Shown here piece by piece: positions 11,345 to 44,694 of a stretch of DNA of 45,066 nt. A program made the translations under genes and the position numbers. Each line of letters starts with the position of its first letter. The stretch's first letter is position 1. This DNA is from a virus: positions 1 through 45,066 of IMG/VR virus record IMGVR_UViG_3300036792_000071; one strand, given 5' to 3'. The notes below the pieces were generated by a model, which searched no databases, was not told the DNA's origin, and saw only the letters and a program-made list of their open reading frames with translations.

Positions 11345-11373
11345 AGATTACTACAGTCTTGCCAATTTGTCAA
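11345..11373 (-). promoter_or_regulatory. Operator-promoter of recA
   Basis: TTGACA (11368-11373), 17-bp spacer, TAATCT (11345-11350). The -35 is part of the 15-bp motif TTGACAAATTGGCAA (11359-11373). Predicted start is within two bases of the recA ATG. Confidence 0.8.
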
Positions 11374-11375
11374 GC

Positions 11376-11873
11376 CTAAACGGCTGGCTGTGGTTCGCCT
11401 GCCTCGGCTTGGATGGCCTGAGCCTCATCTGCCGCCTTTTTCCATGCGGCCAGCGTGCTCATGAATTTGAGATAATTGCGAGTGAACTTAGGACCGCGCA
11501 ACTGGCTGAGACCGTCAGGACCGAACTGCTGGAAGACCTCATCGCACGCCTTGGTCAATTCCCCGTGGGCGTTGAAAAAGGTAAACCAGCATCTTTCGCA
11601 GTTGCGATTCTTCGGTTCATGACCGGGGCGGAACTTATGTCCACACAGGGGAACGGTCTGGAGCTGCAAGGTTGCCTTGGAAGAGTCAAAGAACGCACGC
11701 GTGATGTGCTTACGCTCTTCTTTCCAGCTCTGGAACGTGGAGCCGTCGAACTCGGCCTGCTCCAACTCTGCGATGACGGCCTGTGGAGTGGCAGGCGTGT
11801 AGTTGGCTATACCGGGAGTCTGAAAGGTGACGACCTCTGCCGGAATCCCGCTCTCAGTTGTGACGCTATCCAT
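11376..11873 (-). CDS. Hypothetical protein with zinc-like Cys/His cluster
   Basis: A 165-residue protein. The middle has [20 protein letters not shown], a plausible metal site (C-x-H then C-x2-C). The C-terminal part is helical ([18 protein letters not shown]). ATG 11873 lies inside the end of the previous small gene. Function unknown; its stop sits just upstream of the recA operator. Confidence 0.6.
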
Positions 11874-12045
11874 TGCGACCGTTCTTTCGACTTTCGCGGC
11901 GGATGAGATTGTTCTCTTTACCGGTGAGCTGGGGAGAGACCAGACCGTACTTCTGTTTCAGGATGAAGTCCTCGTCGTACTTCACGCCTTGTGCTTCCTT
12001 GCGGTACTCGCGAGTGACCGCCTGCTGAACTGAACCCTGCGTCAT
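11866..12045 (-). CDS. Small charged hypothetical protein, 59 aa
   Basis: ATG 12045 overlaps the previous stop (TAATG) and the TAG at 11866-11868 overlaps the next gene. The protein is hydrophilic with a basic C-terminus ([15 protein letters not shown]). Position and double overlap are the support. Confidence 0.55.
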   Translation of the reverse strand: MTQGSVQQAVTREYRKEAQGVKYDEDFILKQKYGLVSPQLTGKENNLIRRESRKNGRNG

Positions 12046-12470
12046 TACTTCTTGCCTCTCTTACTGGTTAGACCACGGATAACTTTGAAGTACCGGCTGA
12101 CGGGGCTGATACGGCGTGCGCGTAGAAGCTTGCCGAGTTTCTGCTCGATACCGGAACGTTCCTTAGGTGTGAGTTGGGTGGAGTCCTCGTACAGGTACGT
12201 CTCCCAGAACAGGACCTCTTCCTCTGGGGAAAGATTGCGCGAGATGAGGTTCTCTACGTCGCAGAAGAAGTCCATGAGGTTTGGAGCGGCTGGGACACGG
12301 GTACCTTTGCCCTCGTCGAAGTTGTTCTTCATGGCGGCTATGGCGCCGCGTCCTTTGAGGGTTTGGTAGTGCCCGGTGAAAGGCTCCTTGGCGAACGGGT
12401 TGCCGAAGACATCCTCGAAGGCCCGTTGGTTCGCAGCGAGAATCTCGATGCGAGTGAGGTTACTGCTCAT
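12045..12470 (-). CDS. Hypothetical protein, 141 aa
   Basis: ATG 12470 overlaps the endonuclease TGA (ATGA), with GGAGC upstream; the longer frame is the endonuclease gene's shadow. Helical, mixed charge, ending in a basic tail (VIRGLTSKRGKK). No family recognised. Confidence 0.6.
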   Translation of the reverse strand: MSSNLTRIEILAANQRAFEDVFGNPFAKEPFTGHYQTLKGRGAIAAMKNNFDEGKGTRVPAAPNLMDFFCDVENLISRNLSPEEEVLFWETYLYEDSTQLTPKERSGIEQKLGKLLRARRISPVSRYFKVIRGLTSKRGKK

Positions 12471-12856
12471 CCTGCTCCTGCTAGTTCTGCTATTTTCTTC
12501 AATAGCTTGGCTCGTTTCTTTGTTCCTATGCGTCCCGGAGCGGTGACGTGTGCCCGTCCCAGAGCCTCCGTTGCGGGATAGCCTTGGACGTAGCTGGCTG
12601 CGGAGATTACGTGGAGGTCGTTGTCTCTCCACTTACCCAGAGCGCGGTTGCAGAGCATACAGAGAAGGCCGCGTATGGCGCCGGTGATGTGGTTGTGGTC
12701 CACGGCCAGACGCGTCCCGAGGGGAGGTTTCCGGCAGATAGCGCAGCGATTGCCTTGGTGCTTGAGTATGGCGTTGTACTCGGACAGGGTGATACCGAAC
12801 GTACGCCGCAGGCGAAGGTCTGCGGCCCTGTCCTTGGCCGACGTTTTGGAGGGCAT
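12467..12856 (-). CDS. Endonuclease VII-like HNH nuclease
   Basis: A 129-residue protein with the complete family layout: basic N-terminus, RTFGITLSEYNAIL, CAICRKPP, AVDHNHITG with the catalytic DH, then LLCMLCNRALG. It is the intact counterpart of the partial gene at the window's left edge. Stop-start overlaps with both neighbours place it firmly in the operon, so it could be the phage's junction resolvase or a homing nuclease. Confidence 0.8.
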   Translation of the reverse strand: MPSKTSAKDRAADLRLRRTFGITLSEYNAILKHQGNRCAICRKPPLGTRLAVDHNHITGAIRGLLCMLCNRALGKWRDNDLHVISAASYVQGYPATEALGRAHVTAPGRIGTKKRAKLLKKIAELAGAG

Positions 12857-13371
12857 CAGAGAGAGTGGGCAAACATCCCTAGGTCAATGAACCGGAGGGT
12901 GCCTTCCTTGTCGATACGTAGGTTGCCATCATGCAGGTCCGTACTCATGACCTTGAAGGACCGGCGTATCGTCCGCCGCATGTTCTCCATCCAGCTTTCC
13001 AGCTCGGCGTTATAGGCAGGCCGCTTACGGTACTTGCGTACGACTGTGACGCCTGTCTCCGGGTCGTGGTGCAGGAACTCCGGGAGGTGCGGCTTCAGCG
13101 CCTGAAGACGTTTTCCCTTGGACTTGCTAATCCGCTGGAAGGCGTCCCACTCATTGACGGCATGAAGCACGTTACCGTTATTGACGGTGTTATCGCTTTT
13201 GAGGCGAGGAATCTTGACCAGAAGGGAGGTTCCTAGGATTTGGTATCCATCCCGGAAGCATCCTCCACCGATATATTTGACGGGCAACATGCAGTCGTCC
13301 AAGAGAGCTTGGGCGCTTTTCGGTTGAGTGTCCTTGATGTTGCGAATGACATACTCTTCATTCAGGGCCAT
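12856..13371 (-). CDS. Protein-kinase-like phage protein
   Basis: A 171-residue minimal kinase fold by motif order: a Gly loop GGGCFRDGYQI (35-45), Lys53 in LLVKIPR, Glu74 in VNEWDAF, catalytic-loop TDLHDGN with D145/D148/N150, and IDLG with D163. It is shorter than classical kinases (about 250 aa), having lost much of the C-lobe. Phage kinases of this sort may phosphorylate host proteins or small molecules; the target is unknown. It overlaps the primase-helicase gene by one base and has no recognised close family. Confidence 0.5.
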   Translation of the reverse strand: MALNEEYVIRNIKDTQPKSAQALLDDCMLPVKYIGGGCFRDGYQILGTSLLVKIPRLKSDNTVNNGNVLHAVNEWDAFQRISKSKGKRLQALKPHLPEFLHHDPETGVTVVRKYRKRPAYNAELESWMENMRRTIRRSFKVMSTDLHDGNLRIDKEGTLRFIDLGMFAHSL

Positions 13372-15368
13372 CAGTACGTTATCTCTCCAGAGCCTGCCTC
13401 AGGGGCGGTGACAGGAGCAGGAGACATCCCTAGTCCTTTGTCTTTCATCAGCTCTTTGTTGATGAGGGCATTGGCGCCCACGTTGAAGTCGTTGAAGGTA
13501 GAACGCGCACCGTCATACATGAGCCACGACTGTCCTCCCGCCGAGTAGCGGGACAGGCCGACACTGATAAGGGCCTTGTCGTCGAAGGCGGCGCTCTGCT
13601 CGATGCCCATCATCTCTTCCACTTCGTCGGCATTGGTAGAGCCGAGACGCTTGCGGTTGATGGAGATGTTGCAGTCACAATCCTTGGCGATGGCGGCGGA
13701 CCCGTCGGTGTTGTCGCTGGTGACTATTTTGCCTTCAGAGACGCGGTGCGGCTGGAGGATGACGATAATCTGTACGTCAAACTCCTTGGCCATCTTGGTG
13801 AGGGTCTTGCTGATTTCCGACAGGTGCGTCGTACGGTTCTTCCCGTTCGGCGTGGGGGTGGTGTCGGCCAGCAGTTGCAGGTTGTCGAGGATAATCCACT
13901 TGACTCCATAGCGCCGGATGACTTGGCGGATGAGGTTGTAGATGTCATCGGTGGTCTTGTACTTGGGAAGGCAGAAGTATAGGTCTCCCTCGCGGTTGGA
14001 GGTGTGATTCTGTATCTGCGGAATCATGGTGAGGAACTCCTGAAGGAGAGCCTGTGCTTCCTCTGGGGAGTTCGGGATGTTGTCGGCAATCTGCGCCTTG
14101 TGGCAAATCCACTTGCGGGCCAGCTTGGCGCGGGTCATCTCAAGGCAAATCATCACGGCGTCATCGCCGTAGGTCTCGACCATGTGCTCGACGAGGTTCA
14201 TGGCGAACGTCGTCTTGCCCTGCTTCTCTGCCGCGAGAATGTGAATGACATCGCCGGGGTCGAAGCCTACGTGCTTGTTGAGGTCCGGCCACTGCGAGCG
14301 GTACTTCGGCTCGACGCCTTTGCCCAGAAGCTCTTCAAGGAACTCCTGCACGGCGTCGGTTGAGGAGGCTACGCCGTCCACATCGAAGAGGGCGGCTTCT
14401 TCTTTCAGCTTCTCGAACTCTTCAGCGGTCCCACCGCCGACCGTGAACCACTCGTTGAGGTCTTTGCCCTTGCGGGTCTCGCCCTCGTCGGTCGTGACTT
14501 CAAAGTCAGGAAGGGTCATCTTCCAGCAGCGCTCGATGCCTATCCGCGAGGCGAGGACTTGGGCGGCACGCTGGCCTACCTTGTCCTTGTCATAGCAGAC
14601 GTAAATCTTCTCCAGAGACTCCAGCTTGTCGAGAGTCTCTATCCACTCGGCCTTTTTGAAGTTGGCTCCCGGAACGCCACAAATATCCATGACGCCGTGG
14701 TCCATCGCGGCGATGCAGTTGGCCTCGCCTTCGACGAAGAAGACTTCCTTGATGCCGGGCTTGAGGATTTCCCCGTTGTAGAGCGGAGGCTCCCATCCCT
14801 TGGGACTGTTGAACGCCTTGGGTACCTTGCCCGGATGGTTCATGTCCGGCAGGGTGCGGAAGTGCGCGAAGACGACGTTGCCGTTGACGAGGTAGGGATA
14901 GACGAGGGCTTTGACTTCGCCTGTCTCGCGGAACCATCGTTTTTCGACGATGCCCAGCTTGGTCTTCTCAATGATTTCGCGGCTGAACCCCCGACCATTC
15001 ATCAGGTAGTCCATTGCGTCATCATCGGCAAGGAGCGCGGCGTGGCACGCTTCGATGTCGGGCAGTTCTTCTATTTGCTTTTGACCACCAGACCAGTCCT
15101 TGCGGCTTTCGACGCCGGGGACAGTGAGTCCTAGGTGCTCTCTAAGGTCGTTGATACGGCCACTCTTCCCACACTTGTGGCAATGGTGGAGGCCGTCCCG
15201 CTTCTGGTTTTCGTCACCCGTACCGTGTACTGCCATTTTGAAGGGCGTGCGCGATTCTGACTTACAGTACGGGCAGCGGAGGAGGCGAATCTCATTCTGC
15301 CCCTCCTCCGTAAACTCCCAGCCCTGACTCTTGACGAATTGCAAGGCTGTGCTGCCATTGACTTCCAT
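13371..15368 (-). CDS. Primase-helicase (T7 gp4-like)
   Basis: A 665-residue fusion. A zinc ribbon (C32, C35, C63, C66) is followed by a TOPRIM primase core with FVEGEANC (E213, E215) and YDKD (259-262), then a RecA-like DnaB-type helicase with Walker A AEKQGKTT (380-387) and WIILDNLQLLAD as Walker B. It would unwind the fork and lay down primers. The ATG at 15368 is inside MEVNGSTALQ with no better alternative. A sequence close to the operator motif (TTGACGAATTGCAA) near 15335 is coding and probably chance. Confidence 0.85.
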   Translation of the reverse strand: MEVNGSTALQFVKSQGWEFTEEGQNEIRLLRCPYCKSESRTPFKMAVHGTGDENQKRDGLHHCHKCGKSGRINDLREHLGLTVPGVESRKDWSGGQKQIEELPDIEACHAALLADDDAMDYLMNGRGFSREIIEKTKLGIVEKRWFRETGEVKALVYPYLVNGNVVFAHFRTLPDMNHPGKVPKAFNSPKGWEPPLYNGEILKPGIKEVFFVEGEANCIAAMDHGVMDICGVPGANFKKAEWIETLDKLESLEKIYVCYDKDKVGQRAAQVLASRIGIERCWKMTLPDFEVTTDEGETRKGKDLNEWFTVGGGTAEEFEKLKEEAALFDVDGVASSTDAVQEFLEELLGKGVEPKYRSQWPDLNKHVGFDPGDVIHILAAEKQGKTTFAMNLVEHMVETYGDDAVMICLEMTRAKLARKWICHKAQIADNIPNSPEEAQALLQEFLTMIPQIQNHTSNREGDLYFCLPKYKTTDDIYNLIRQVIRRYGVKWIILDNLQLLADTTPTPNGKNRTTHLSEISKTLTKMAKEFDVQIIVILQPHRVSEGKIVTSDNTDGSAAIAKDCDCNISINRKRLGSTNADEVEEMMGIEQSAAFDDKALISVGLSRYSAGGQSWLMYDGARSTFNDFNVGANALINKELMKDKGLGMSPAPVTAPEAGSGEITY

Positions 15369-15397: not shown

Positions 15398-15895
15398 CTA
15401 GACCTCGTAGGTGACGGGCACGGTCGTGATGTAGTTCTTTAGGACAGCAGCCCCACGAGCTTCGACCTCGCTTTTGTAAACACGGGAGCCTGTAATCACG
15501 TTCCCAGAGAAGCTCTTGAACAGGTTGACGTAGCGGGTGACCTTCTCCTTGGCCATGAAGAGGTCATACTCTGTATCACAGCTAAGGAAGCCACCACTAC
15601 GGTTGACGTGGTACGGTGAACTTGCTGAGTGTTTTTCTGTGACATACGACACGGGATGCTGAATATTGGAACCTATGTCAGAGATGTGAGTGACCTTCTT
15701 GCCCTTGCGGGTGACGACAGGCTTCCCGGCAAGGGCTTCCTTGAGGTTGAAGGGCTTGAGGCCAGCGGGGACGTACGGAGCAGCGGGAGACTGACCGGCG
15801 CCATCGAGGTTAGAGTTCGTGGTGACCGTGTTGCCAATATCGGTCGAGGTGAGACCTGTGTTGACGCGGAGTGGGTAGGTTCTGTAAAGCGGCAT
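15398..15895 (-). CDS. Hypothetical protein, 165 aa
   Basis: ATG 15895 has AAAGGAA nine bases upstream; the frame is open to 15949 but that part is the promoter leader. The N-terminal half is rich in Thr, Asn and Pro; the C-terminal half has AKEKVTRYVNLFKSFSG. No family recognised. It is the first gene after an operator-promoter. Confidence 0.6.
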   Translation of the reverse strand: MPLYRTYPLRVNTGLTSTDIGNTVTTNSNLDGAGQSPAAPYVPAGLKPFNLKEALAGKPVVTRKGKKVTHISDIGSNIQHPVSYVTEKHSASSPYHVNRSGGFLSCDTEYDLFMAKEKVTRYVNLFKSFSGNVITGSRVYKSEVEARGAAVLKNYITTVPVTYEV

Positions 15896-15939
15896 GAGGG
15901 GTATTCCTTTTTCGGTTTCGCTCTTTTGAGTGTAAATCC

Positions 15940-15968
15940 ATAGTACCACGTTATTGCCAATTTGTCAA
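15940..15968 (-). promoter_or_regulatory. Operator-promoter upstream of the 15398-15895 gene
   Basis: TTGACA (15963-15968), 17-bp spacer, TACTAT (15940-15945); 15-bp motif TTGACAAATTGGCAA at 15954-15968. The TGA stop of the upstream gene is inside the -35 box. Leader about 38 bases. Confidence 0.85.
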
Positions 15969-18325: not shown

Positions 18326-18628
18326 TTAGTTGACGGCGCGGCTGGAGGAGTTCTGGAACAGGAGGCGTCCGGTCTCAGTGAGCGCGTAGGCGAGGAATCC
18401 CCGGTTCTGCTGGGTGAGAAGCTTGAAGTATTTCTTGCAAACGTTCTTCATCAGACCCATGCGGCGCAGCTCGTCAATCGCGTCGGCACGGTTGTATAGC
18501 TCCTTCTCAAGGAACTTGCAGTCGCGATGGATGGGAAGAGGGACGAGGAAGACGTTCCCTTCGGTCTTGGCAGCGTCGTTGAGGGCCGCGTACTGGAAGG
18601 GTGTCAGGACTGGGTGACTGTGGCTCAT
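18326..18628 (-). CDS. Hypothetical small winged-helix-like protein, 100 aa
   Basis: Start ATG 18628 coincides with the predicted transcript start of the operator-promoter just upstream, so the mRNA would be leaderless. The sequence ALNDAAKTEGN, DAIDELRRMGLMKNV, FLAYALTETGRLLF has the helix-helix-wing rhythm of small transcriptional regulators, but this is only suggestive. Confidence 0.55.
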   Translation of the reverse strand: MSHSHPVLTPFQYAALNDAAKTEGNVFLVPLPIHRDCKFLEKELYNRADAIDELRRMGLMKNVCKKYFKLLTQQNRGFLAYALTETGRLLFQNSSSRAVN

Positions 18629-18634
18629 GAATTG

Positions 18635-18663
18635 AATGTAGGGCACGCCTGCCAATTTGTCAA
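18635..18663 (-). promoter_or_regulatory. Operator-promoter of the 18628 gene
   Basis: TTGACA (18658-18663), 17-bp spacer, TACATT (18635-18640). The 15-bp motif at 18649-18663 has one mismatch at its far end. Predicted start is on the ATG. Confidence 0.75.
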
Positions 18664-21285: not shown

Positions 21286-21551
21286 GTAGGTTTCCAGTTG
21301 CCTTTACGGACGAACCTCACCACAAGGTCGTTGGGCAGGGTCTCCAGAACGAGGATGTCGAGATGACCATCGTGGTGCCCGGTATGGCACGCGGCACAGA
21401 GCGTGAGCAGGTTGTCAAGGGTGTCGGGACCCTGCTGACTCTGGTAGATGACGTGGTGAGGGTGGAGATTATTCCTGCTTCGGCATCCGGTGTTTCTGCA
21501 TCTCCAACCGTCACGCGTGAAGCAGGCGGTAGAAATCCTACGGTCAAGCAA
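21282..21551 (-). CDS. McrA-like HNH nuclease
   Basis: An 89-residue HNH domain of the short type: CRNTGCRSRNNLHPHHVIYQ, DTLDNLLTLCAACHTGHHDG, with the H-N-H triad and two C-x-C-like metal pairs. Its start overlaps the end of a second HNH gene by eight bases, so two unrelated HNH genes are joined head to tail. Confidence 0.8.
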   Translation of the reverse strand: MLDRRISTACFTRDGWRCRNTGCRSRNNLHPHHVIYQSQQGPDTLDNLLTLCAACHTGHHDGHLDILVLETLPNDLVVRFVRKGNWKPT

Positions 21552-22062
21552 AGGTCTGAATCACCTTCCCTAACCGCACAAACTCGTCAAATGTGAACCA
21601 ATCGCCTTTAGCTCGGTTACAACGCGTGCAGCAAACTACAAGGTTATCCTTCGTGTAGCCTGTGGAACTATCCTTTCGGTCTAGGTTGTACGCGCCGCCT
21701 TTTTGTTTATTTCTAGAGAAAGGACTCCACACCACTGTGTCATCGCAATAGAAGCAGTTCGGTTCCCTAGTGAACTCAAGGAATTGCTCAAAGGTGATAG
21801 ATTTTTCGAACTTACGTGGGTCACTTAGAAGTCTGTTGTATAGCCACAAGAACGGCGCCTTCCGGTTGCATCCCTTGAGAGCGCAGCCGCAACTGACAAC
21901 TTTACCGCCCTTCAGGTTATTGGAGGTAACCTCTGTTCGTTTACCACACTCACAGCGACAAGCCCACCGCCTGCGACCTACTTCATTGACGCCGTGAGTT
22001 ACAGTGAGCCGCCCGAAAGTCTTCCCGATGAGGTTGTACTTAGGGTCATTCCACCAGCTCAT
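21544..22062 (-). CDS. HNH homing-type endonuclease with N-terminal zinc ribbon
   Basis: A 172-residue protein. N-terminus GKTFGRLTVTHG and CRCECGK...VVSCGC form a zinc ribbon; the core is NCFYCDDTVVW, YNLDRKDSSTGYT, VVCCTRCNRAKGDW, then FTFDEF. Same architecture as 24948-25484 and same core as 3406-3903. Its ATG lies in the stop of a 7-codon ORF (22082-22059, MKKCSSL), a possible coupling device. Confidence 0.8.
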   Translation of the reverse strand: MSWWNDPKYNLIGKTFGRLTVTHGVNEVGRRRWACRCECGKRTEVTSNNLKGGKVVSCGCALKGCNRKAPFLWLYNRLLSDPRKFEKSITFEQFLEFTREPNCFYCDDTVVWSPFSRNKQKGGAYNLDRKDSSTGYTKDNLVVCCTRCNRAKGDWFTFDEFVRLGKVIQTFA

Positions 22063-22246: not shown

Positions 22247-22415
22247 CGCGCTCTAACCGTCCCTGTGCATAGCCACGGTAGAAGCCTTCGTCAGAGCCTC
22301 GCTCGAAGCCTCGCTCATGGGCCGCATCCCGTTCGCGACGAATCTCTCCTTCGACGCAGCGCCAGATGATGAACGCTACAAGGATACCGAGTGCCAGTGC
22401 GATAAGTCCCATCAT
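22239..22415 (-). CDS. Membrane-anchored small protein, 58 aa
   Basis: ATG 22415 overlaps the upstream stop and has GGAGATGG upstream. One N-terminal membrane helix (MMGLIALALGILVAFIIW) is followed by a charged tail with Gly-Phe/Tyr-Arg repeats (ERGFERGSDEGFYRGYAQGR). This kind of tail recurs in small phage membrane proteins. Function unknown. Confidence 0.5.
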   Translation of the reverse strand: MMGLIALALGILVAFIIWRCVEGEIRRERDAAHERGFERGSDEGFYRGYAQGRLERDE

Positions 22416-23146
22416 GGTTCCATCTCCTCTTCTGCTGCGTCCCAGTCGGTGTTTGCCGAATCGACAATCTCTGCGTGCAGTTCTTGGTTCATTGGATTAT
22501 TGGAAGGGTTATTCAAATATTCGATTGCCCAGACTTCAAAGCACGCCGCATCCGACGCATCCTGAGAGATTCCTTCATCATCCTTGCCAACCGAACCGAT
22601 GTTCGCACGGGCAAGGTCAAGAGCAGGAACGATAGTTGCCTCCAGAACAGAACGAAGGAACGGAATGTTTCTCCATTCAATGTCATTGGCGCCTACTAGA
22701 CCTTTCAGGGTTCTCACGTGTTGCCGGATGTCTTCAAGGTCGGTGTCCACGCCGTTGGCTACGAAGTCCTTGATGAACTCCTTCATGGGAGTTTCCTGTC
22801 CGGTGACCGGGTTCTTGTAGATAGCATCCGGGTCCAGCGAGGTAATCTCGCGGAGCTTGGAGATGCCCAGCTTCTCGTACACGGTACGCGGGATGCCCAC
22901 GTCGGCCATGACCTCGACGATGTGAGTGAGGTACTGGGCCTTGCGAGCCTTGATGCTCAGGCTCTCGGTGTATTCCTTGAACGTGGAGAAGTGGCTCTGG
23001 TAGTAACCGTGGACCTTGACGGTGTGGAGCAGTTCGGCGAGGTCGAAGTTCTGCTTGTTGACGTTCTGGATGAGGGCTTCGACTTGGGCCAGTGCCTTGG
23101 CTGCGGCCCCGGCGACAGCTTCGCCGGAAATTACGACTTCGTGCAT
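22412..23146 (-). CDS. Hypothetical phage protein, 244 aa
   Basis: ATG 23146 has AAGGAACA upstream. Largely helical, with an N-terminal region (FDLAELLHTVKVHGYYQ..FSTFKEYTESL..KARKAQYL) like DNA-binding or plasmid-type accessory proteins of the DUF3102 kind, and an acidic C-terminus (DWDAAEEEMEP). Function unassigned. Confidence 0.55.
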   Translation of the reverse strand: MHEVVISGEAVAGAAAKALAQVEALIQNVNKQNFDLAELLHTVKVHGYYQSHFSTFKEYTESLSIKARKAQYLTHIVEVMADVGIPRTVYEKLGISKLREITSLDPDAIYKNPVTGQETPMKEFIKDFVANGVDTDLEDIRQHVRTLKGLVGANDIEWRNIPFLRSVLEATIVPALDLARANIGSVGKDDEGISQDASDAACFEVWAIEYLNNPSNNPMNQELHAEIVDSANTDWDAAEEEMEP

Positions 23147-26508: not shown

Positions 26509-26527
26509 GGACTCCTGAGTGGATTTT

Positions 26528-26575
26528 GGTACTGCATCCCGGCTGGTAAGGTCACAGCCGGGCATTGATGCAGAG
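26528..26575 (-). promoter_or_regulatory. Strong hairpin in the leader of the 25618-26508 gene
   Basis: CCCGGCTG pairs with CAGCCGGG, extended by TGCAT/ATGCA outside. No T-tract follows, so it is a leader structure rather than a terminator. Confidence 0.5.
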
Positions 26576-26584
26576 GACCTTTTG

Positions 26585-26989: not shown

Positions 26990-27018
26990 ATAGTACCACA
27001 GGTTTGCCAAGTTGTCAA
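26990..27018 (-). promoter_or_regulatory. Operator-promoter of the 26585-26935 gene
   Basis: TTGACA (27013-27018), 17-bp spacer, TACTAT (26990-26995); 15-bp motif TTGACAACTTGGCAA (27004-27018). Leader about 48 bases. Confidence 0.85.
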
Positions 27019-28838: not shown

Positions 28839-28869
28839 GTGACAACTTGGCAAGACTCTTGGGTAGAAT
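28839..28869 (+). promoter_or_regulatory. Rightward operator-promoter
   Basis: The motif GTGACAACTTGGCAA (28839-28853) is followed by TAGAAT (28864-28869), 19 bases after GTGACA, so the promoter is weaker than the others. The predicted start falls on ATG 28876. Confidence 0.55.
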
Positions 28870-30183: not shown

Positions 30184-30212
30184 ATCCTAGCATAGATTTG
30201 CCAAATTGTCAA
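30184..30212 (-). promoter_or_regulatory. Operator-promoter of the PRTase gene
   Basis: TTGACA (30207-30212), 17-bp spacer, TAGGAT (30184-30189); motif TTGACAATTTGGCAA (30198-30212). Back to back with the rightward promoter at 30254. Confidence 0.82.
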
Positions 30213-30253: not shown

Positions 30254-30282
30254 TTGACAAATTGACAAGGACGCTGTAGTAT
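30254..30282 (+). promoter_or_regulatory. Rightward operator-promoter
   Basis: TTGACA (30254-30259), 17-bp spacer, TAGTAT (30277-30282); motif TTGACAAATTGACAA (30254-30268). Start predicted within 2-4 bases of ATG 30292. Confidence 0.85.
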
Positions 30283-31171: not shown

Positions 31172-31942
31172 TTACGCTGCCGACTCGGTAAGGGACCGAG
31201 GACGGCCCGGCCCCCTTCGAAAATCGTCCGGGATGGCCTCCGGTTCGAACTGCGTCAGGCTGGCGATACCGGCCTCAGTGAGCAGCATCCCGACCAGTGT
31301 ATCGAGGTAGGAGCGCTTGGCCCGGCCCTTGAGCGACTGGAGAGCGTTGCGGCCCATACGGAAGCTCTGGCGCAACAGCTCGTCCTTGTCGGCGGGCATA
31401 GCCTCAATACCCGCCTTGCTGTCGTCGCGAATCTCCCGCTGCTTCTGCTCCAGCTTCACGATGTAGTCGTGGGCCTCCGTAGGCGTGGGGTTCTTGGGCG
31501 GGGGAAGGAGCTTGACCGCCTTGGTGAACTTGCCCAGAGGCTCCTGATTGTTGTACGAGAGCACCTTGAGACCGCGAATCATGGCTGCCTTGAGCACCGG
31601 CTCCGGGAACGCCTTCTGGGCGTTGCGCCACGTCTCCATGTAGCGGTACGCCGTACGCCACGAGAAGGAGAACGACTTGCAGATACGCATGAACGCACCG
31701 GAGTACGGCTCGCAGGTGGAGTAGATGTTGTGGAGGTGCTGGCCGAGAGCCAGACCGGACTGGGCGTGCGCCATACGGGCTGCCGCGAGCTGGCGAATCT
31801 CATCCTGCACGTACTTGGCCTTGTTATTCGGCATGTCCTTCCAGACGGACTTCAGCTCCTCCGAAGGAGCGAACAGGCTGGCTTCATGGAGGGACTTGGC
31901 GGGGAGAGCGATAAGCTTGGTGTCATTCCTTTTGGTCTTCAT
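31172..31942 (-). CDS. Putative DNA-binding protein with HTH-like region and AT-hook
   Basis: A 257-residue basic protein. A predicted helix-turn-helix-like stretch (FSFSWRTAYRYMETWRNAQK, about 90-110) and a C-terminal GPGRPR AT-hook support DNA binding, as in plasmid KfrA- or ParB-adjacent proteins. It has a long structured leader and a strong promoter, so it is a candidate for the factor acting on the repeated operators; this is untested. Confidence 0.5.
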   Translation of the reverse strand: MKTKRNDTKLIALPAKSLHEASLFAPSEELKSVWKDMPNNKAKYVQDEIRQLAAARMAHAQSGLALGQHLHNIYSTCEPYSGAFMRICKSFSFSWRTAYRYMETWRNAQKAFPEPVLKAAMIRGLKVLSYNNQEPLGKFTKAVKLLPPPKNPTPTEAHDYIVKLEQKQREIRDDSKAGIEAMPADKDELLRQSFRMGRNALQSLKGRAKRSYLDTLVGMLLTEAGIASLTQFEPEAIPDDFRRGPGRPRSLTESAA

Positions 31943-32064: not shown

Positions 32065-32101
32065 ACCCTAAGTCTATGGAATAAGTTTGTCAAGATGTCA
32101 A
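32065..32101 (-). promoter_or_regulatory. Promoter region with half-operators, long leader
   Basis: TTGACA (32088-32093) with TAGGGT (32065-32070) at 17 bp, plus a second TTGACA eight bases upstream. Only the left half of the 15-bp motif is kept. The leader to 31942 is about 115 bases; 31943-32064 holds a T-rich tract and no other gene. Confidence 0.6.
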
Positions 32102-34460: not shown

Positions 34461-35507
34461 CTACTCGTCGTCCTCATCGAGGAACTTGCGGCCCGGTTTG
34501 ACTTCTACCATATCGTTGAGGGAGTCCATGATGCCGTCCAGACCGTTGAGAATCTGCGACCGCAGCTCGTCATTGGACTTGAGGGACTTGGCGCTGATGC
34601 CGTTGACCAGAGCACGGGCACGGGCGCCCTGTGCGGCCAGCTCCTTGTCGCCGGTGACGTTGCGGAGGTCCAGCGTATCGAGGAACTCGTTCAGGTTCTT
34701 GATGGCCGACTCCTTGAGAATCTTCGGCTTCCCTTCGTCGCCGGGAGCCAGACGCTCCTGCAAGTGGCCCACAAGCTTGTGCAGGGTCTCGCGCATCAGC
34801 GCGGTGATGTCCGCTGTGGCGTTGGCAATGGTCTCCTGCATCTTCTCCTTCTCTGCCTCAAAGAGCGCGGCAGAGATGTTCTTGAGAGAACCGGGGACGG
34901 TGAAGGTGGTGTACTGCCATTCGAAGGTGTACTTCTGGCGAATCTCTTCCGCCACGGGATAGTCCGACGCGTTGTAGAGGGAGCCAAGCTGCTGAGCGGC
35001 GGAATCCTGAAGGGAAGGGTAGACGGCAAGGAACTCCTCGACCAGCTTGGAGCGCTCCTCGCGGTACGACTTCATCTTCTCTTCGGCGGTTTCAATCAGG
35101 CCGATGGGCAGGAGCATGATGCCCATATCGAAGGGCAGGCAGGTGTTGTAGAGCCACTGGCGCATCTTACCGTCCGCCTTCTTGATGGCGTCCAGCTCCG
35201 GGGAGTCCAGAAGAGTTTTGGAGACCTTCAGGCGTTCCTTGTTGGCGTCCGTATCGAGTACGTCTCCGCTGACTTTGCGGGAGTTGCCCATTGCGCCAAA
35301 GCGGGTCTTGAGGAATACGGTCTTGTTGACCAGCTCCGAGGCATCGCTAACGTTCATGAGGACGCCTGTAGCGTGCTGCGTCTGCGCCGGTGTGGCGGAG
35401 AGAGGTTCCATACTGTTGAGGACGGCGTCGATGGTCGCGTCCGAGGGAATGAGGATGTCGGCGGGAATCGTGTAGCCCTGCGGGTGGGTGAAGATGGTCT
35501 CCGTCAT
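34461..35507 (-). CDS. DUF3150-like conserved protein
   Basis: A 348-residue protein with the DUF3150 pattern: TVFLKTRFGAMGNSRKVSGD near 63-82, then a long helical region (REERSKLVEEFLAVYPSL), ALFEAEKEKMQETIANAT and an acidic end FLDEDDE. In phages and plasmids such genes often accompany AAA+ ATPase genes; one lies at 37988-39553. GGAGAG precedes ATG 35507. A 5-codon ORF (35521-35504, MESYQ) ends on its start (AATGA). Confidence 0.55.
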   Translation of the reverse strand: MTETIFTHPQGYTIPADILIPSDATIDAVLNSMEPLSATPAQTQHATGVLMNVSDASELVNKTVFLKTRFGAMGNSRKVSGDVLDTDANKERLKVSKTLLDSPELDAIKKADGKMRQWLYNTCLPFDMGIMLLPIGLIETAEEKMKSYREERSKLVEEFLAVYPSLQDSAAQQLGSLYNASDYPVAEEIRQKYTFEWQYTTFTVPGSLKNISAALFEAEKEKMQETIANATADITALMRETLHKLVGHLQERLAPGDEGKPKILKESAIKNLNEFLDTLDLRNVTGDKELAAQGARARALVNGISAKSLKSNDELRSQILNGLDGIMDSLNDMVEVKPGRKFLDEDDE

Positions 35508-35571: not shown

Positions 35572-35600
35572 ATAGTACCGACTCCTTGCCAAATTGTCAA
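35572..35600 (-). promoter_or_regulatory. Operator-promoter of the DUF3150-like gene
   Basis: TTGACA (35595-35600), 17-bp spacer, TACTAT (35572-35577); motif TTGACAATTTGGCAA (35586-35600), with the flank TAGTTC also found at 37963, 42908 and 44680. Confidence 0.87.
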
Positions 35601-35603: not shown

Positions 35604-36230
35604 CTATTTTAGATTAGTTTCGACAGCGCGAAGGAACTCGACACCGGGATAGCCAGTGATAGAAACCAGTCCATCGGCGGAGATGGTGACCTCGGCGGCT
35701 TGGACCTGCTTGAAGTCCTTGGCCGTGTAGCGGTCTGTGAACGTCACGATGTTCTGGTTCGCGGAACCGCAGAGAGGCTTCTCGGTGGTGAGCTTCTGGA
35801 CGTTGAAGCGGCCCATGACGGCGTAGTCGATACGCTCCTTGACGTGCTTCCACGTCTCTCCATCGCCCTGTAGCATCTGCCCGGCGTAGAAAGTGCGCCA
35901 GTGGCCGAACTCCAGCTCCCGTTCGGTGTATCCGGTGTACATGCCTACAGACAGCTCAGGCCGGATGTCGCGAAGGAATTGCAGGATGTCGATAAGGTCC
36001 GAGACGTGTTGCATCGGCTCTCCGCCAGAGAAGGTGACGCCCTCAATGTCGGGCAGCTCCAGCAGCCATGACTTGATGTCTTGGTTATCGACATACGATT
36101 TCCCGGTGAACTTGTGGGTCTCTGGATTGTGGCAGCCCGTGCAGGCGAGGGTACAACCTTGCAGCCACAGGACGGCACGCTTTCCGGGACCGTTGACTTC
36201 GGACGATGCGACCTTACCGTGCAGAAACAT
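35604..36230 (-). CDS. Radical SAM activase (NrdG-like)
   Basis: A 208-residue radical SAM protein with the 4Fe-4S motif C26-TLA-C30-TG-C33 and TFSGGEPMQ. It matches glycyl-radical activases such as NrdG, but the reductase in this window is class II, which needs no activase; the partner may lie outside the window or be host. ATG 36230 overlaps the upstream TGA, with GGAGGT. Confidence 0.72.
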   Translation of the reverse strand: MFLHGKVASSEVNGPGKRAVLWLQGCTLACTGCHNPETHKFTGKSYVDNQDIKSWLLELPDIEGVTFSGGEPMQHVSDLIDILQFLRDIRPELSVGMYTGYTERELEFGHWRTFYAGQMLQGDGETWKHVKERIDYAVMGRFNVQKLTTEKPLCGSANQNIVTFTDRYTAKDFKQVQAAEVTISADGLVSITGYPGVEFLRAVETNLK

Positions 36231-36406
36231 CACTCTACCTCCCTAAGCCACTCTGGTAGAAACCTACGTGGGTCTTGGTTCCCACCAGACCATCCATTAC
36301 TGCTCTGCACGAGGTATCTACCGTACTCGTCAGGAGCGCCCACGATAGTTCCATACTTCAGACCGTTGATGGTCTCCCACTCTACTTTTGTACCGATTGA
36401 AAACAT
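36230..36406 (-). CDS. Small KOW/SH3-like protein, 58 aa
   Basis: ATG 36406 has AGGAGA upstream. The pattern FSIGTKVEWETINGLKYGTIVG is a small beta barrel that often binds nucleic acid. Driven by a type-2 promoter. Confidence 0.6.
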   Translation of the reverse strand: MFSIGTKVEWETINGLKYGTIVGAPDEYGRYLVQSSNGWSGGNQDPRRFLPEWLREVE

Positions 36407-36756: not shown

Positions 36757-37197
36757 TTATGCCCGGAGGAACGTGTACGCGATTTGCCCGTTCTTCACTT
36801 CGCGCTTGGTAATCTTCAGCCCGGCCCTCTTGGCCTGTTTCTGCACGCCGACATCGGCAACGTTCGCCTTGACGGTGTTGAGCCACTTGGCGTCGTAGCG
36901 GGTGCTGTCATAGTCCGAGATGACGGCCTTATACTTGCCGTCCTCGCCGCGCTGAAAGCCGATGTCATTGGACATACCGCCAACCTGCGAACGGGGAATG
37001 ATGATGTCCGCCTTCATGGCCAGCTCTGCGTTGCGGGTGTGGCCGTTGCCGTCCAGCGTGCGGAAGTCTCCCATGTAGCCGACGAGGGGTTGCGGGTCTC
37101 CTACACAGTTCGTGGGGTTGAATCCCATCGCCTTGAGCGCATCGATGAGGTTATCGGCATCGGTGAACTCGGTTTGAATCTCGTTGAACGCGCTCAC
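36757..37197 (-). CDS. DUF1257 (Ycf35)-like protein
   Basis: GTG 37197 has AAGGAG eight bases upstream and overlaps the preceding TGA. The 146-residue protein fits DUF1257: an initial helix (TDADNLIDALKAMGF), GYMGDFR, AELAMKADIIIPR, SNDIGFQRGEDGKYKAVISD, helical end and REVKNGQIAYTFLR. Role unknown; paired with DUF2997 and the ATPase. The longer Gly-rich frame upstream is a shadow of the triplet-repeat gene. Confidence 0.62.
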   Translation of the reverse strand: MSAFNEIQTEFTDADNLIDALKAMGFNPTNCVGDPQPLVGYMGDFRTLDGNGHTRNAELAMKADIIIPRSQVGGMSNDIGFQRGEDGKYKAVISDYDSTRYDAKWLNTVKANVADVGVQKQAKRAGLKITKREVKNGQIAYTFLRA

Positions 37198-37928
37198 TGA
37201 ATTGTCTCCTTCTGTGCGTCTACGCACGCAAAGAACGTTGAGGCTATCTGCTTGTGCGCCGACTCCGCCGACTCCGCCGCCCACGCCGCCGACTTCGCCG
37301 CCGACTTCGCCGCCCACGCCGCCGACTCCGCCGACTTCGCCGCCGACTTCGCCGCCCACGCCGCCGACTCCGCCGCCCACGCCGCCCACGCCGCCGCCGA
37401 CTCCGCCGCCCACGCCGCCCACGCCGCCCACGCCGCCCACGCCGCCGACTCCGCCGCCGACTTCGCCGCCGACTCCGCCGCCGCCTCATCTCCGCTCTTT
37501 AGGGCAGACTTCACCTGCTCGCAAGCGTCTACAACCTGTTGCCAATAGGCTGGGGCAGGGGAGGGTTGAACGGGTCTGGCATAGTCCAGAGCTATATCGA
37601 TGATTCCTACGGTGAAAGCAATACGAACGGATTCCCATTGCTCGGAGGTAAAGGACGCCATACTGTCCGCTCGGTCAGAGAACTGCTGGAATAGCCACGG
37701 TACATCTTGAGCTGACACGCCGTCGTCCAACGTCGGCATCAGTTCAAAGACCCAAAGAGGGAACAAGCTGACGGGGCAGTCACTCACGGACTTGATAGTT
37801 CCCGGTTTTCCCCAAGCAGCGGCCAGACAGACATACTCCCTGCCATCTTCTCCCTGCCTGTGCCAAGCCTTTTGTAACGTCCGGCCTTCCGTTACCACAC
37901 TGCGGAAGTATTCAATCGGGGTGCTCAT
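37194..37928 (-). CDS. Protein with Ala-Ala-(Trp/Ser/Glu/Lys) triplet-repeat domain
   Basis: A 244-residue protein. Residues about 1-135 are a normal globular domain (YVCLAAAWGKPGTIKSVSD..FPLWVFELMPTLDD). Residues about 150-230 are tandem AAW, AAE, AAK and AAS triplets, encoded by a GCC-rich trinucleotide array (37255-37485), then a short tail. It would form a left-handed-type helix or Ala-rich coil. First gene of the DUF1257/DUF2997 operon; ATG 37928 has TAGGAGA. Confidence 0.65.
   Translation of the reverse strand: MSTPIEYFRSVVTEGRTLQKAWHRQGEDGREYVCLAAAWGKPGTIKSVSDCPVSLFPLWVFELMPTLDDGVSAQDVPWLFQQFSDRADSMASFTSEQWESVRIAFTVGIIDIALDYARPVQPSPAPAYWQQVVDACEQVKSALKSGDEAAAESAAKSAAESAAWAAWAAWAAWAAESAAAWAAWAAESAAWAAKSAAKSAESAAWAAKSAAKSAAWAAESAESAHKQIASTFFACVDAQKETIQ
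37255..37485. repeat. GC-rich trinucleotide-based tandem array
   Basis: Imperfect runs of GCCGCC with GAC, CAC or TTC interspersed, coding the Ala triplets. Every reading frame stays open across it on both strands, so several long shadow ORFs appear. Prone to copy-number slippage. Confidence 0.85.
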
Positions 37929-37948: not shown

Positions 37949-37977
37949 ATACTACCAAGGGTTTGCCAACTTGTCAA
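37949..37977 (-). promoter_or_regulatory. Operator-promoter of the triplet-repeat operon
   Basis: TTGACA (37972-37977), 17-bp spacer, TAGTAT (37949-37954); motif TTGACAAGTTGGCAA (37963-37977). Leader about 14 bases. Confidence 0.87.
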
Positions 37978-37987: not shown

Positions 37988-39553
37988 TTAGTCGTCCTCT
38001 TCCATATTCAGCACGCGCCCTGTGCGGGTCTCGGCCATTGCTTTGGGGGCAGCATACGAACCTGCCGCTGTCTCTGCTCCGTTGTAGTGGTATAGGCCGG
38101 GTTTGGATGCGCTGAGGTACTTGTTGTTGGACCGTGAACGCAGGTTGTGAATCAGCTCCGCGCTGGACTTGGTGACAGGAACGATGTAGCTGGCCGCTTC
38201 CGCGAGCGTGATGTTGAGCCTGTACGCCTTTTTGCAGCACGCGGCTATCTCGCGGCCCACCCATCCCTCATCCTTAGGGTTTGGCTCACTCGCCGGGATG
38301 TTCCACTTGGCCCGGTGAATCTCCCATATCCCTTGGCGCTCTGTCGCGTCTGGGGCATCGAAGAAGAAGATGTCAGAGAAGCGTGCGCGAAGCTCCGGGG
38401 ATAGTGACTCCACACTGTTGCATGTGGCAATGAGGACAGAGCGTTTGTCGCTGATGGCATCGCAGACCTTCTGTGCCTGACGCAGTTGCGCTCCGCTCTG
38501 GCCGATGATTCCGCCTTGCATACCGGGTAAGTCAAAGATGACCGTGGGACGGCTGTAGGTGTTGCCGCCGCACTTAGTAAGGAAGGACTTCGAGGTTCCG
38601 GGGATGCCGACAAAGAGAATCCCGTGTACGTCGCTATCCTGCATCCACGAGAGCATACAGCCGTGCATCTCTCCCTTGACGCCTGACATATCCGTGCCTG
38701 CGCCTGCGACGGCCTTTTCAATCTCGTCAATAAAGATGACGGCTTTAGGTGCGTCGCGCCCTTCCATGACACGGCGGAAATATTGTTTTACCTGCTCCAA
38801 ACCGCCGATGTCGTCAAGGGTTTCGGTCCCACGGTAGACACTTAGGCCGGGAGTCTGAGCGATGACTTGGCGCTTGTGCTCCCATAGTTCTTCAAGGTCC
38901 AGCGTTCCTTCGCGCTGTTCCCCGTTCTTCGTGATGTTGAGGCACATCGCCGTGCTCTGCTCCGCTGCAAAGGAGGGAACGCCGACAAGGGCATCCACTG
39001 CACGCTGCATGATGGCTTCAGACGGTGCGCTGACCTTGGCGAACTCATGGGTCTCTGTGATGCGCTTGCGAATCTCGGTCTCTGTGGGCAGAGGTTCATC
39101 CATGACCATGACATCGTTGGCCAGCTCTGCCGGGAGTGCGGCGCCCGGTGCTACAAGTAACACGAGCATGTTGGCGTTGGCCTTGTACGGGTCTCGGAGG
39201 TTCCATATACCCTGAATCACGTTCGCTTCGCGGTTGGCCCATTGCAGATGCGCGTTATCCACGTACACGGTGACCTTCTGTGTGCAAGCTTCCAGTGTGA
39301 GCAGGGCAGAGGAGAACTCGGCTGTTGCCGATGCGTCCATACCGTTGAGAATATGGCTGACCTCTTTGGTCCCAGCTTCGTTGAGGGAACGGATGCCGTG
39401 GTTCGCGTCCCACAGGAGGAACGGGTTCTCTTTGGCCTTGGCCCCTAACGCTTCACGGATGTTGTCGCGTGTGGCCTTGGCATCAAAGGTTCGGATGCAA
39501 ACCAACGGCGTAGACACCCGCTTGGCCGCTTTGAACTGTGCAATAAATTCCAT
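37988..39553 (-). CDS. Ycf46-like AAA+ ATPase with permuted motif order
   Basis: A 521-residue protein. The N-terminal half resembles the Ycf46 ATPase N-domain (CIRTFDAKATRDNI, PFLLWDANHGI, VTVYVDNAH, VLLVAPGAALPAEL). The AAA core runs in an unusual order: IFIDEIEK (273-280, Walker B-like) and its helix first, then GIPGTSKS (316-323, Walker A-like, with Ser where Gly is usual), GIIGQS, then IATCNS (sensor 1, 375-380) and PELRARF. Normal AAA+ proteins have Walker A first. It may be a remodelling ATPase for the DUF1257/DUF2997 proteins. AGGAGA precedes ATG 39553. Confidence 0.72.
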   Translation of the reverse strand: MEFIAQFKAAKRVSTPLVCIRTFDAKATRDNIREALGAKAKENPFLLWDANHGIRSLNEAGTKEVSHILNGMDASATAEFSSALLTLEACTQKVTVYVDNAHLQWANREANVIQGIWNLRDPYKANANMLVLLVAPGAALPAELANDVMVMDEPLPTETEIRKRITETHEFAKVSAPSEAIMQRAVDALVGVPSFAAEQSTAMCLNITKNGEQREGTLDLEELWEHKRQVIAQTPGLSVYRGTETLDDIGGLEQVKQYFRRVMEGRDAPKAVIFIDEIEKAVAGAGTDMSGVKGEMHGCMLSWMQDSDVHGILFVGIPGTSKSFLTKCGGNTYSRPTVIFDLPGMQGGIIGQSGAQLRQAQKVCDAISDKRSVLIATCNSVESLSPELRARFSDIFFFDAPDATERQGIWEIHRAKWNIPASEPNPKDEGWVGREIAACCKKAYRLNITLAEAASYIVPVTKSSAELIHNLRSRSNNKYLSASKPGLYHYNGAETAAGSYAAPKAMAETRTGRVLNMEEDD

Positions 39554-39596: not shown

Positions 39597-39637
39597 AAGA
39601 TACAAAACCCTTGTCAGTTTGTCAAGTCTTTTGACAA
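39597..39637 (-). promoter_or_regulatory. Operator-promoter of the ATPase gene
   Basis: TTGACA (39620-39625), 17-bp spacer, TATCTT (39597-39602); motif TTGACAAACTGACAA (39611-39625). A further TTGACAA half-site lies in opposite orientation at 39631-39637. Confidence 0.78.
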
Positions 39638-40336: not shown

Positions 40337-40540
40337 CTACATGCTGAGGTATAGCTCTGCGGTTGCCCGTTCGAAGTCTTCTGGTGACATTCGCAGGATG
40401 GCCGGAAGCATCACCGCTGCTCGTTCTAACTGTGGCGTCCATCCTTCTTTATCGACTGCACGCTGAAAGTCTTCAGTTAGGCCGGGCGAGAGGTTCGTGG
40501 GTATCTCCCTGCGACCTTGGATGTACGGCTGTCTATCCAT
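40337..40540 (-). CDS. Hypothetical protein, 67 aa
   Basis: ATG 40540 overlaps the upstream TAG (ATGGATAG). Helical (LTEDFQRAVDKEGWTPQLERAA). Function unknown. Confidence 0.5.
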   Translation of the reverse strand: MDRQPYIQGRREIPTNLSPGLTEDFQRAVDKEGWTPQLERAAVMLPAILRMSPEDFERATAELYLSM

Positions 40541-41464: not shown

Positions 41465-42841
41465 TTACATTGATTCTTCACAGTCCACACAGACACCATA
41501 AGACATATCGCGGTCTGTAGCTCCACACTTACGACACGCCTGTACCTCTGGCAACGGTGCGCTGTATGCCTCAAGTTGCACCGCGATACGTTCGATAGAC
41601 GCGAAGGGTACAACGTGGCAACCGGCGTATACGGTACCGTCCGCTGTAATCCTGTCAATGCGGTAATGCCCTAAGTGGCAGGTATGGCCGTTTGTATGCC
41701 AATCCTCCCCGCGTGCCATAACAGAGCGAACTAGAGCCAAACCTCGCACAGCATGAGACATAGGGAAGTTTGCGCCGCGTGATGTTTCGACGGTATCGCC
41801 AACAATCCGCAGGTATGTGCTGTCATAGGAATACCCCGGAATTGAAACAGACTCCCCGCGCATCCATGCCTGTAGAAGTTCCACTGCCAAGCGTGCGCGG
41901 TTTGTGTTCTCCCAGCCATATCTGAGGTTTTCACCCTGTTTTGCTGTACCGTCCCATTGCGCTGATACGTCCGCGTGCTCTGACATCCACTGTGTAAGCT
42001 CTGCCAGTGCGCGTGCATCGCGCTCTTTCAACTGCCGCGCACGCTTTGCTTCACTGTGCTCTGTTGCCAGTGTCTCTGCGTGCTCTGTGGTACCGTCCCA
42101 ACGTGCGGCATACTCGGGGTTACGTTCCATCCATTCTTGGATACGTTGCTTGTATTGCTCTGCCGTTGCTTCACGGTTTACCTTTGCGATACGTGCAGCT
42201 TCTTGCTTTGCTTTGCGTCCCATATCCTTCGCTGCGTCTACGGACGGGGGAATAGTGGGAAGCTTGCGGGATTCAATACGCGCACGTTCTGACAATGCGG
42301 GGAGTCCGAAGAACTGCACGAACCTCAGAAGCTCATTCCGCTCCGCGTGCGCCTCGTCAAGGTGTCTCTGTATCACTGTCGTCAGACGTGCGCCTAACGC
42401 ATCCTGTACGCGTGTCTTGACGTTGCTCTGGTACGCTGCAATGATTCGTTCGCAGTCCAATGTCCCGTTGCTATCAGGGAGCATAGAACGGTTCAATGGA
42501 ACGTAGAAGATTACAGCATCGGAGGGAATCGCACGGCGCACTGTGCTAACGTGTCGGCCAGTGGTAGGTCCATAGCTGTCAGTTGTGAATAGGATGGCAG
42601 CCTGTCCGCGTTTGTTTTGGACGTGTGCAGCTATAGGGAAGTGTGAGCCGTACGAATAGATAACGCCATCCGCAAAGTAAAAGTTACCCTGTGCATTGCG
42701 TGCGCTACCCTGCGTCTTGTGTGCCCAAAGATGCGGAATCTCCGCAATATCGTAGACTTGCTTCTGGCGTTTGCCTGTCTTTGGGGTACGTGCGAGAGGA
42801 TTATTACGTCCGTGCGAGTTACCGCTGTATTGTCCGTACAT
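41465..42841 (-). CDS. Conserved phage protein with C-terminal zinc ribbon, 458 aa
   Basis: ATG 42841 has GGGGAG nine bases upstream after a leader hairpin. The N-terminal domain (HLWAHKTQGSARNAQGNFYF, GVIYSYGSHFPIA) is a recurrent phage pattern of unknown role. The middle is a long Arg/Glu helix with two repeats built on MERNPEYAARWDGT and MSEHADVSAQWDGT. The end CRKCGATDRDMSYGVCVDC is a zinc ribbon. Confidence 0.65.
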   Translation of the reverse strand: MYGQYSGNSHGRNNPLARTPKTGKRQKQVYDIAEIPHLWAHKTQGSARNAQGNFYFADGVIYSYGSHFPIAAHVQNKRGQAAILFTTDSYGPTTGRHVSTVRRAIPSDAVIFYVPLNRSMLPDSNGTLDCERIIAAYQSNVKTRVQDALGARLTTVIQRHLDEAHAERNELLRFVQFFGLPALSERARIESRKLPTIPPSVDAAKDMGRKAKQEAARIAKVNREATAEQYKQRIQEWMERNPEYAARWDGTTEHAETLATEHSEAKRARQLKERDARALAELTQWMSEHADVSAQWDGTAKQGENLRYGWENTNRARLAVELLQAWMRGESVSIPGYSYDSTYLRIVGDTVETSRGANFPMSHAVRGLALVRSVMARGEDWHTNGHTCHLGHYRIDRITADGTVYAGCHVVPFASIERIAVQLEAYSAPLPEVQACRKCGATDRDMSYGVCVDCEESM

Positions 42842-42854
42842 TGTGTTTACTCCC

Positions 42855-42874
42855 CGCACTGTTATCGCCGTGCG
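42855..42874 (-). promoter_or_regulatory. SD-adjacent leader hairpin, copy 2
   Basis: CGCAC (42874-42870 strand sense) and GTGCG around a ten-base loop, then GGGGAG. Confidence 0.6.
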
Positions 42875-42893: not shown

Positions 42894-42922
42894 ATGGTAT
42901 CGAATCGTTGCCAAATTGTCAA
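42894..42922 (-). promoter_or_regulatory. Operator-promoter of the 458-aa gene
   Basis: TTGACA (42917-42922), 17-bp spacer, TACCAT (42894-42899); motif TTGACAATTTGGCAA (42908-42922). Confidence 0.85.
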
Positions 42923-44155: not shown

Positions 44156-44323
44156 TTATGCCTGTGATTCGTACCGTGCTAACCGCGTCTTCATGTTCTC
44201 CACACGTAGACGGCTAACGGCTGCCATTGCTTCGCGTCCCATTGCTTCGTGACGTGCTGCCCACTTTTATTCAAGTTCGATGTCGGCTTTGAGTTGAGCA
44301 ACCATGTACAGTGCGTTTGTCAT
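44156..44323 (-). pseudogene. Gene interrupted by an in-frame TAA
   Basis: ATG 44323 starts a frame of 18 codons (MTNALYMVAQLKADIELE) that meets TAA at 44267-44269 and then continues in-frame for 36 protein-like codons (KWAARHEAMGREAMAAVSRL...) to TAA 44156-44158. The codon before the stop is GAA; reverting one base gives GAA. No ribosome site is present; the type-2 promoter predicts a leaderless transcript. Confidence 0.6.
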
Positions 44324-44329
44324 TCCTCT

Positions 44330-44358
44330 ACAGTACATACGTATTGCATACAAGTCAA
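44330..44358 (-). promoter_or_regulatory. Type-2 promoter
   Basis: TTGACT (44353-44358), 17-bp spacer, TACTGT (44330-44335). Sequence nearly identical to 43613-43641. Start predicted on ATG 44323. Confidence 0.75.
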
Positions 44359-44366
44359 GAGAAAAA

Positions 44367-44591
44367 TTACATTATTTTTCTGTGCGCCGTGCGTTGTACG
44401 AAAGCGAAGAAATACCGTGCGCGTGACCCGTTGGCGTTTTTTGGTTTGCGGTAACCGTATTGCCTTGCTTCCATCAGCACGCGGCTTACCTGATTAGAGT
44501 CTAGCCTGTGGAAGTCTGCGTTTAGTTCGCATCCAATGGCGGCCATTATGTTGCGTGCCTCATAGAATCCCATTTTCCTACGCTCTGCCAT
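44367..44591 (-). CDS. Hypothetical protein, 74 aa
   Basis: GGAGGG precedes ATG 44591. Basic, helical (KMGFYEARNIMAAIGCELNAD). A 13-codon ORF (44637-44596, MTLETFKAIKVGG) with its own GGGAG site ends within the ribosome site, suggesting coupled translation. Confidence 0.6.
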   Translation of the reverse strand: MAERRKMGFYEARNIMAAIGCELNADFHRLDSNQVSRVLMEARQYGYRKPKNANGSRARYFFAFVQRTAHRKIM

Positions 44592-44665
44592 TAGCTCACC
44601 CTCCGACCTTGATAGCTTTGAACGTTTCTAGAGTCATTTGTCTTGTCTCCCTCGCTTGCATTGTC

Positions 44666-44694
44666 AGAGTACCAAACCCTTGCCAACTTGTCAA
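44666..44694 (-). promoter_or_regulatory. Operator-promoter of the 44367-44591 gene
   Basis: TTGACA (44689-44694), 17-bp spacer, TACTCT (44666-44671); motif TTGACAAGTTGGCAA (44680-44694). Leader about 68 bases. Confidence 0.83.

Follow-up and report, generated by a model that had tools for sequence, protein, structure and literature searches.

A candidate phage-wide operator overlapping the -35 box of early promoters in a relative of Tunturiibacter phage Tunturi_3

The window phage and its dispersed palindrome

The stretch of DNA analysed here, the window, is a complete IMG/VR record of 45,066 bases. Its genes encode ribonucleotide reductase, RecA, a primase-helicase, a helicase, an RNA ligase, an exonuclease and an AAA ATPase, along with one tRNA-Gln. 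Among named phages, Tunturi_3 of Tunturiibacter (Acidobacteriota) comes nearest, with RecA and primase-helicase 67% and 59% identical, respectively, and a profile search with the primase-helicase retrieved about 28 related IMG/VR contigs. Because the terminase, portal, head and DNA-polymerase genes of Tunturi_3 had no match among the window proteins, and the larger relatives measure 90-109 kb, the window represents about half a phage genome. Three ORFs (3397-3903, 21544-22062 and 24948-25484) share similar C-terminal HNH-like sequences, DRKDN/CCxRCNxxK, are found in many, not all, relatives and are probably homing endonucleases of one family. Elsewhere, the segment 37194-37440, in which ORFs 37194-37928 and 36757-37440 overlap, is repetitive and open in two frames, encoding repeats of the AAWAAWAAE and GGVGG types.

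Across the window recurs a short near-palindrome, TTGMCAANTTGKCAA. The motif search that the first-pass annotation had proposed found 16 matches with two or fewer mismatches, against 0.41 expected from dinucleotide shuffles (maximum of 3 in 100 shuffles), and all twelve positions listed in that annotation contain the motif. Its near-identical reading on both strands also held up: the architecture is a 7-1-7 inverted repeat, and when the trinucleotide dyads of intergenic DNA were counted without bias, TTGn1CAA ranked first (44 versus 5.5 expected) and TTGn9CAA second (22 versus 5.5). In whole-genome k-mer enrichment, the signal was swamped by codon bias. Read in the direction of transcription, the site is TTGACAAnTTGGCAA, with TTGACAA as the upstream, -35 half at every listed site and TTGGCAA as the downstream half at 10 of 12, counting 18649 with one end base changed. 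The sites stand at the heads of early operons on both strands, as had been claimed, ten facing leftward and two rightward (28839 and 30254).

The copies at 18649 and 28839 had been recognised as imperfect, the latter in its first base; those at 30254 and 39611 are imperfect too. Among the additional two-mismatch matches, the intragenic ones at 18048, 32324 and 40144 are probably due to chance, and the remaining one, at 32087, lies upstream of a candidate regulator gene. An additional TTGTCAA occurs exactly 12 bp upstream of the operator at 18649, 30198 and 39611, two of which (18649 and 39611) have an imperfect second half. The features are listed in Table 1.

Table 1. Predicted operator sites and candidate binding proteins in the window, with the corresponding sites in the related phage G014
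Coordinates	Strand	Feature	Details	G014 counterpart
11359..11373	-	Operator fused to -35 of recA (10216-11373)	-10 TAATCT; ATG about 4 bp past -10	
15954..15968	-	Operator-promoter, 15398-15949 / primase-helicase (13371-15368) operon		43113
18649..18663	-	Operator-promoter, small ORF 18326-18628	Last base imperfect	41586
27004..27018	-	Operator-promoter, 26585-26935 and 25618-26904 region	G014 pairing by 25618-26904	33549
28839..28853	+	Imperfect operator GTGACAACTTGGCAA, before 58-aa ORF 28876-29052	-10 only at spacer 19	
30198..30212	-	Operator-promoter, phosphoribosyltransferase-like 29641-30147	G014 counterpart fused too	30624
30254..30268	+	Operator-promoter, 30292-31095	Divergent from 30198	
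32087..32101	-	Degenerate operator TTGACATCTTGACAA	145 bp upstream of candidate regulator gene	27697
35586..35600	-	Operator-promoter, 34461-35507 operon		
37963..37977	-	Operator-promoter, 37194-37928 operon		
39611..39625	-	Operator-promoter, AAA ATPase 37988-39553	Second half imperfect	13895
42908..42922	-	Operator-promoter, 41465-42859		
44680..44694	-	Operator-promoter, 44367-44591 operon		
31172..31942	-	Candidate regulator	256 aa; HTH-like pair, residues 83-111; C-terminal GPGRP	
18326..18628	-	Second candidate binder	100 aa; operator at the very start in both phages	

Register of the palindrome with early promoters

At 11 of the 12 listed sites, one more than the ten first counted, TTGACA is followed by an exact 17-bp spacer and TAnnnT. 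The lone exception is 28839, with GTGACA and a TAGAAT at 19 bp. By comparison, TAnnnT has a background rate of 0.0077 per position, and any other spacer length was found at no more than one site. The -10 box of these promoters is extended (TGnTAnnnT), and from this register the operator would cover about -36 to -22. In a promoter scan of the window, which dropped four listed sites overlapped by greedy ORFs, the intergenic high-scoring promoters all carry the spacer half, except that of the candidate regulator itself. At 11359, 18649 and 28839 the ATG lies only 4-6 bp past the -10 box, so the mRNAs of recA, the small ORF and the 58-aa ORF would be leaderless.

To separate the operator from the promoter beneath it, 39 intergenic TTGACA-17-TAnnnT promoters from eight relatives were aligned in the register of the window. 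Common to these promoters are the -35, the extended -10 (TGnTAnnnT), A-rich upstream DNA and, in places, AAAATAGTTC. At positions 9-15 from the start of the -35 they carry less than 0.4 bits per column, whereas the window carries 1.06 to 2.0 bits. Since the promoters of relatives lack it, the second half of the palindrome is overlaid on the promoter, and the operator is predicted to be an added binding site rather than a promoter requirement. The flank TAGTTC, noted earlier as kept at several sites, precedes 4 of the 12 (35586, 37963, 42908 and 44680); because it also stands, identical or nearly so, before operator-less promoters of two relatives (G046 and G032), it belongs to the promoters of this group and lies outside the operator.

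A second phage with the network and the candidate binding proteins

The motif-plus-promoter pattern led to a second phage, G014 (IMGVR_UViG_3300028558_000022; 90,978 bp), which is collinear with the window at protein identities of mostly 40-75% and alone among the relatives has the same operator network. Its rightward early arm (1.5-43.1 kb) holds 11 good copies of TTGNCAANTTGNCAA, eight of them exact and three with one mismatch, mostly a perfect palindrome and often flanked as GTTTGACAATTTGTCAAAC; the leftward arm has no more than two, each with one mismatch, of which that at 56759 is intergenic and the other intragenic. Six of the sites precede the same operons as in the window (Table 1). 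Fusion to the -35 occurs only at 30624; other sites precede a separate -35, starting 22, 25, 33 or 47 bp ahead of it. At 1546, 5640 and 33582, that separate -35 itself bears a two-mismatch copy of the operator (TTGACAAATCG...). Strong and weak operators may act in tandem and cooperatively in G014, and the extra TTGTCAA in the window hints at a similar arrangement. This placement of the palindrome, mostly apart from the -35, together with the 39-promoter comparison, led us to reject a promoter-only reading.

Beyond G014, the relatives carry none to two copies each, and the operator motif is absent from Tunturi_3, Tunturi_4 and most other relatives, some of them from Acidobacteriota hosts; the search of related genomes proposed at the outset thus found the network recurring in one phage. 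The exact fused pattern was found in 50 viral stretches, of which only G014 has genes in common with the window, and a perfect-palindrome version in 58, where the only window homologues were distant ribonucleotide reductases. The motif was rejected as a general phage feature, the matches outside G014 being single ones or belonging to phages with a different spacer element.

Other recurrent elements came to light as well. In Tunturi_4 (PP885687; L061 and L062), a distant relative, another element is dispersed: ATCCTAG/CCTAGGA-type 7-mers number 93 against 6.4 expected and are largely intergenic. Arrays of TTGACA..TTGGTAAAACCTTGcTATAAT promoters occur in apparently unrelated phages (the L010-L058 group, records G001-G013; GC content about 45-49%, contigs of up to 208 kb), for example at G001:198823-206027 and G006:8858-24258; the spacer of these promoters contains an element, TGGTAAAACC, that is strongly conserved and not palindromic. 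Lastly, a phage or prophage contig without window homologues (L245:1008-1260) has four TTGACAnnTTGTCAA palindromes, one with a mismatch, within 250 bp, a layout that resembles a classical repressor control region.

The product of 31172-31942 is the leading candidate for the protein that binds the operator, with a likelihood that we place a little below even. Among 30 relatives, many of them fragments, only two gave a member of its family: G014 (E 2.5e-168) and, as a distant homologue, G044 (E 1.4e-43). Structure prediction gave a mainly helical protein, with a well-scored core that includes an HTH-like pair (residues 83-90 and 95-111), and the C-terminus reads GPGRP/RGRP. Fold searches returned no significant match and no credible Pfam or NCBIfam family was found. 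The top viral fold match, itself non-significant, was a DUF3102 protein; DUF3102 (PF11300) was rejected as the family, with no match to the Pfam model in the window, G014 or G044 proteins. The HTH region in all three proteins matches PHROG 1733, of unknown function, weakly. The case for this candidate is circumstantial, consisting of co-occurrence with the motif, a putative autoregulatory site (the degenerate operator that both motif-bearing phages have about 145 bp ahead of the gene) and the HTH-like region. Against it, a recurrent motif was looked for in G044 and none was found, and the two-phage pattern is shared by two other genes, one of the radical-SAM type (35604-36233) and the other a 67-aa ORF (40337-40540).

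The second candidate, the 100-aa product of 18326-18628, has the operator directly at its gene start in the window and in G014; against it stand weak homologues in motif-free relatives, and its model is poor (pLDDT 49). The HTH-like gene 22412-23146 was set aside as unspecific because it occurs in nearly all larger relatives, motif or no motif.

As for integration genes, the window encodes just a 200-aa recombinase, whereas G014 has a tyrosine integrase of 380 aa beside the regulator gene. No clear integrated relative or lysogen was found; one 30-kb MAG contig has a primase at 50% identity and otherwise distant matches. Tunturi viruses are lytic in behaviour despite the integrase or recombinase genes annotated in Tunturi_3 to 5 (PMC11924767).

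A model of control, its rivals and known systems

These comparisons of predicted sites give good support to a palindromic target, fused to the -35 box, of a transcription regulator that acts phage-wide. We infer protein binding, binding as a dimer and repression as the sign of control; with reasonable confidence, we regard TTGACAAnTTGGCAA as an operator with two-fold symmetry, to which a dimeric transcription regulator would bind, most likely a repressor of strong early promoters. The operator would sit on about -36 to -22 of sigma70-type promoters, one per early operon, so that the bound protein would compete directly with RNA polymerase and repress its targets together, early operons of replication and recombination among them, such as those of recA, the primase-helicase, the exonuclease and the ATPase. 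Its role could be that of an immunity repressor or of a repressor that shuts off early genes at the transition to late ones. Repression is the most economical reading because the promoters under the site have a consensus -35 and an extended -10 of their own. G014 counts against simple occlusion: with the majority of its sites starting 22-47 bp ahead of the -35 start, occlusion would fail there unless the protein also occupied the weak copies on the -35. We speculate, as a somewhat unlikely extension, that the network has been rewired between the two phages, with the same operons served by a site on the -35 in the window and mostly upstream of the promoter in G014, and a new, unclassified family of HTH-like regulators as its cognate; the targets would be kept, and the strength or sign of control may differ.

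The first-pass annotation had left open a repressor or an activator. The regulator site is well supported, and of the two the repressor is favoured. As an activator, a dimer on the same site would recruit or remodel RNA polymerase at early or middle promoters, and the operator centres inferred for several G014 promoters, at roughly -51 to -62, do resemble those of class I activators. The window sites, at -36 to -22 with a consensus -35, an extended -10 and a normal 17-bp spacer, argue otherwise: such promoters make an activator unnecessary, and MerR-type spacer activators work on spacers of 19-20 bp. With the distance from site to -35 in G014 also varying (0, 22, 25, 33 and 47 bp), we consider activation unlikely. 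That the binder is instead a host regulator, for instance a stress or SOS repressor whose sites the phage lineage adopted, would suit the presence of the recA promoter among the targets (11359), and the phage binder is so far only a candidate, with part of the phage genome outside the window. The site is lacking from most relatives, including some from Acidobacteriota hosts, and none adjoins recA in G014, so that we hold this origin to be quite unlikely.

Two further explanations have to be set against the repressor model. Stoperators of the L5 type would chiefly block elongation genome-wide, and the many sites across the early arm in a single orientation relative to transcription are what they predict, as is the G014 site at 41586, which overlaps a gene start with no obvious promoter. 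The operator and stoperator sites of L5 are asymmetric 13-mers that bind a monomer and mostly lie off promoters (PMC9283540, PMC6550527), whereas 11 of the 12 window sites are in promoter register and the G014 site is mostly fully symmetric, which makes this mode of action very unlikely. With no binder at all, RNA polymerase or a phage sigma factor might simply prefer an elaborate spacer sequence; this would account for the constant register of the window sites with -35 and -10, and unrelated phages do have other conserved spacer elements. This we regard as extremely improbable, given that relatives with the same style of -35 and -10 lack the spacer half, that the operator stands apart from the promoter in G014 and that its halves are mirror images.

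Gene control in phages of the Acidobacteriota type is almost unstudied: the words promoter and repressor are absent from the main text of the Tunturi paper (PMC11924767), and we found no such operator network described for this phage group in the literature. In this system the operator is defined, as are about a dozen operons, and there is one candidate protein to test. Comparison of the window with G014 would reveal how a dispersed operator network shifts relative to promoters, and the operator-promoter could become a regulated promoter part for Acidobacteriota-type hosts.

The finding of the same symmetric site at many phage promoters, repeated in G014, places the network with the dispersed repressor-operator systems of BPs, phiC31 and P1. 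The C1 repressor of P1 has many operators overlapping promoters around a genome of roughly 90 kb; its sites are 17-bp and asymmetric, whereas the window site is symmetric. In phiC31 the repressor sites are inverted repeats near promoters, with another sequence and in another host. Both phiC31 and L5 have 18-30 repressor sites dispersed over their genomes (PMC4557955). The likeness to L5 stoperators drawn in the first-pass annotation is a loose one: in L5, too, one repressor has more than 20 short sites, including one at an early promoter (PMC9283540, PMC6550527), but the window site is symmetric and at promoters, and the stoperator label fails on both symmetry (the 7-1-7 repeat) and position. 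In BPs, a single repressor, gp33, acts at several promoters genome-wide, one operator lies between -35 and -10, and the half-site is itself palindromic (PMC4557955), as is the window half, TTGnCAA. BPs differs in its 12-bp half-sites (CGACATATGTCG), in having fewer sites and in its repressor-integrase cassette with integration-dependent immunity (PMC4557955). BPs and phiC31 are closer to the window system than L5 is, in the case of BPs by its anatomy. This type of control is already known from BPs, phiC31 and P1 and is newly seen in this phage group; what is unusual is that nearly every early promoter has its -35 fused with an operator half, and that a relative places the same operator differently at the same operons.
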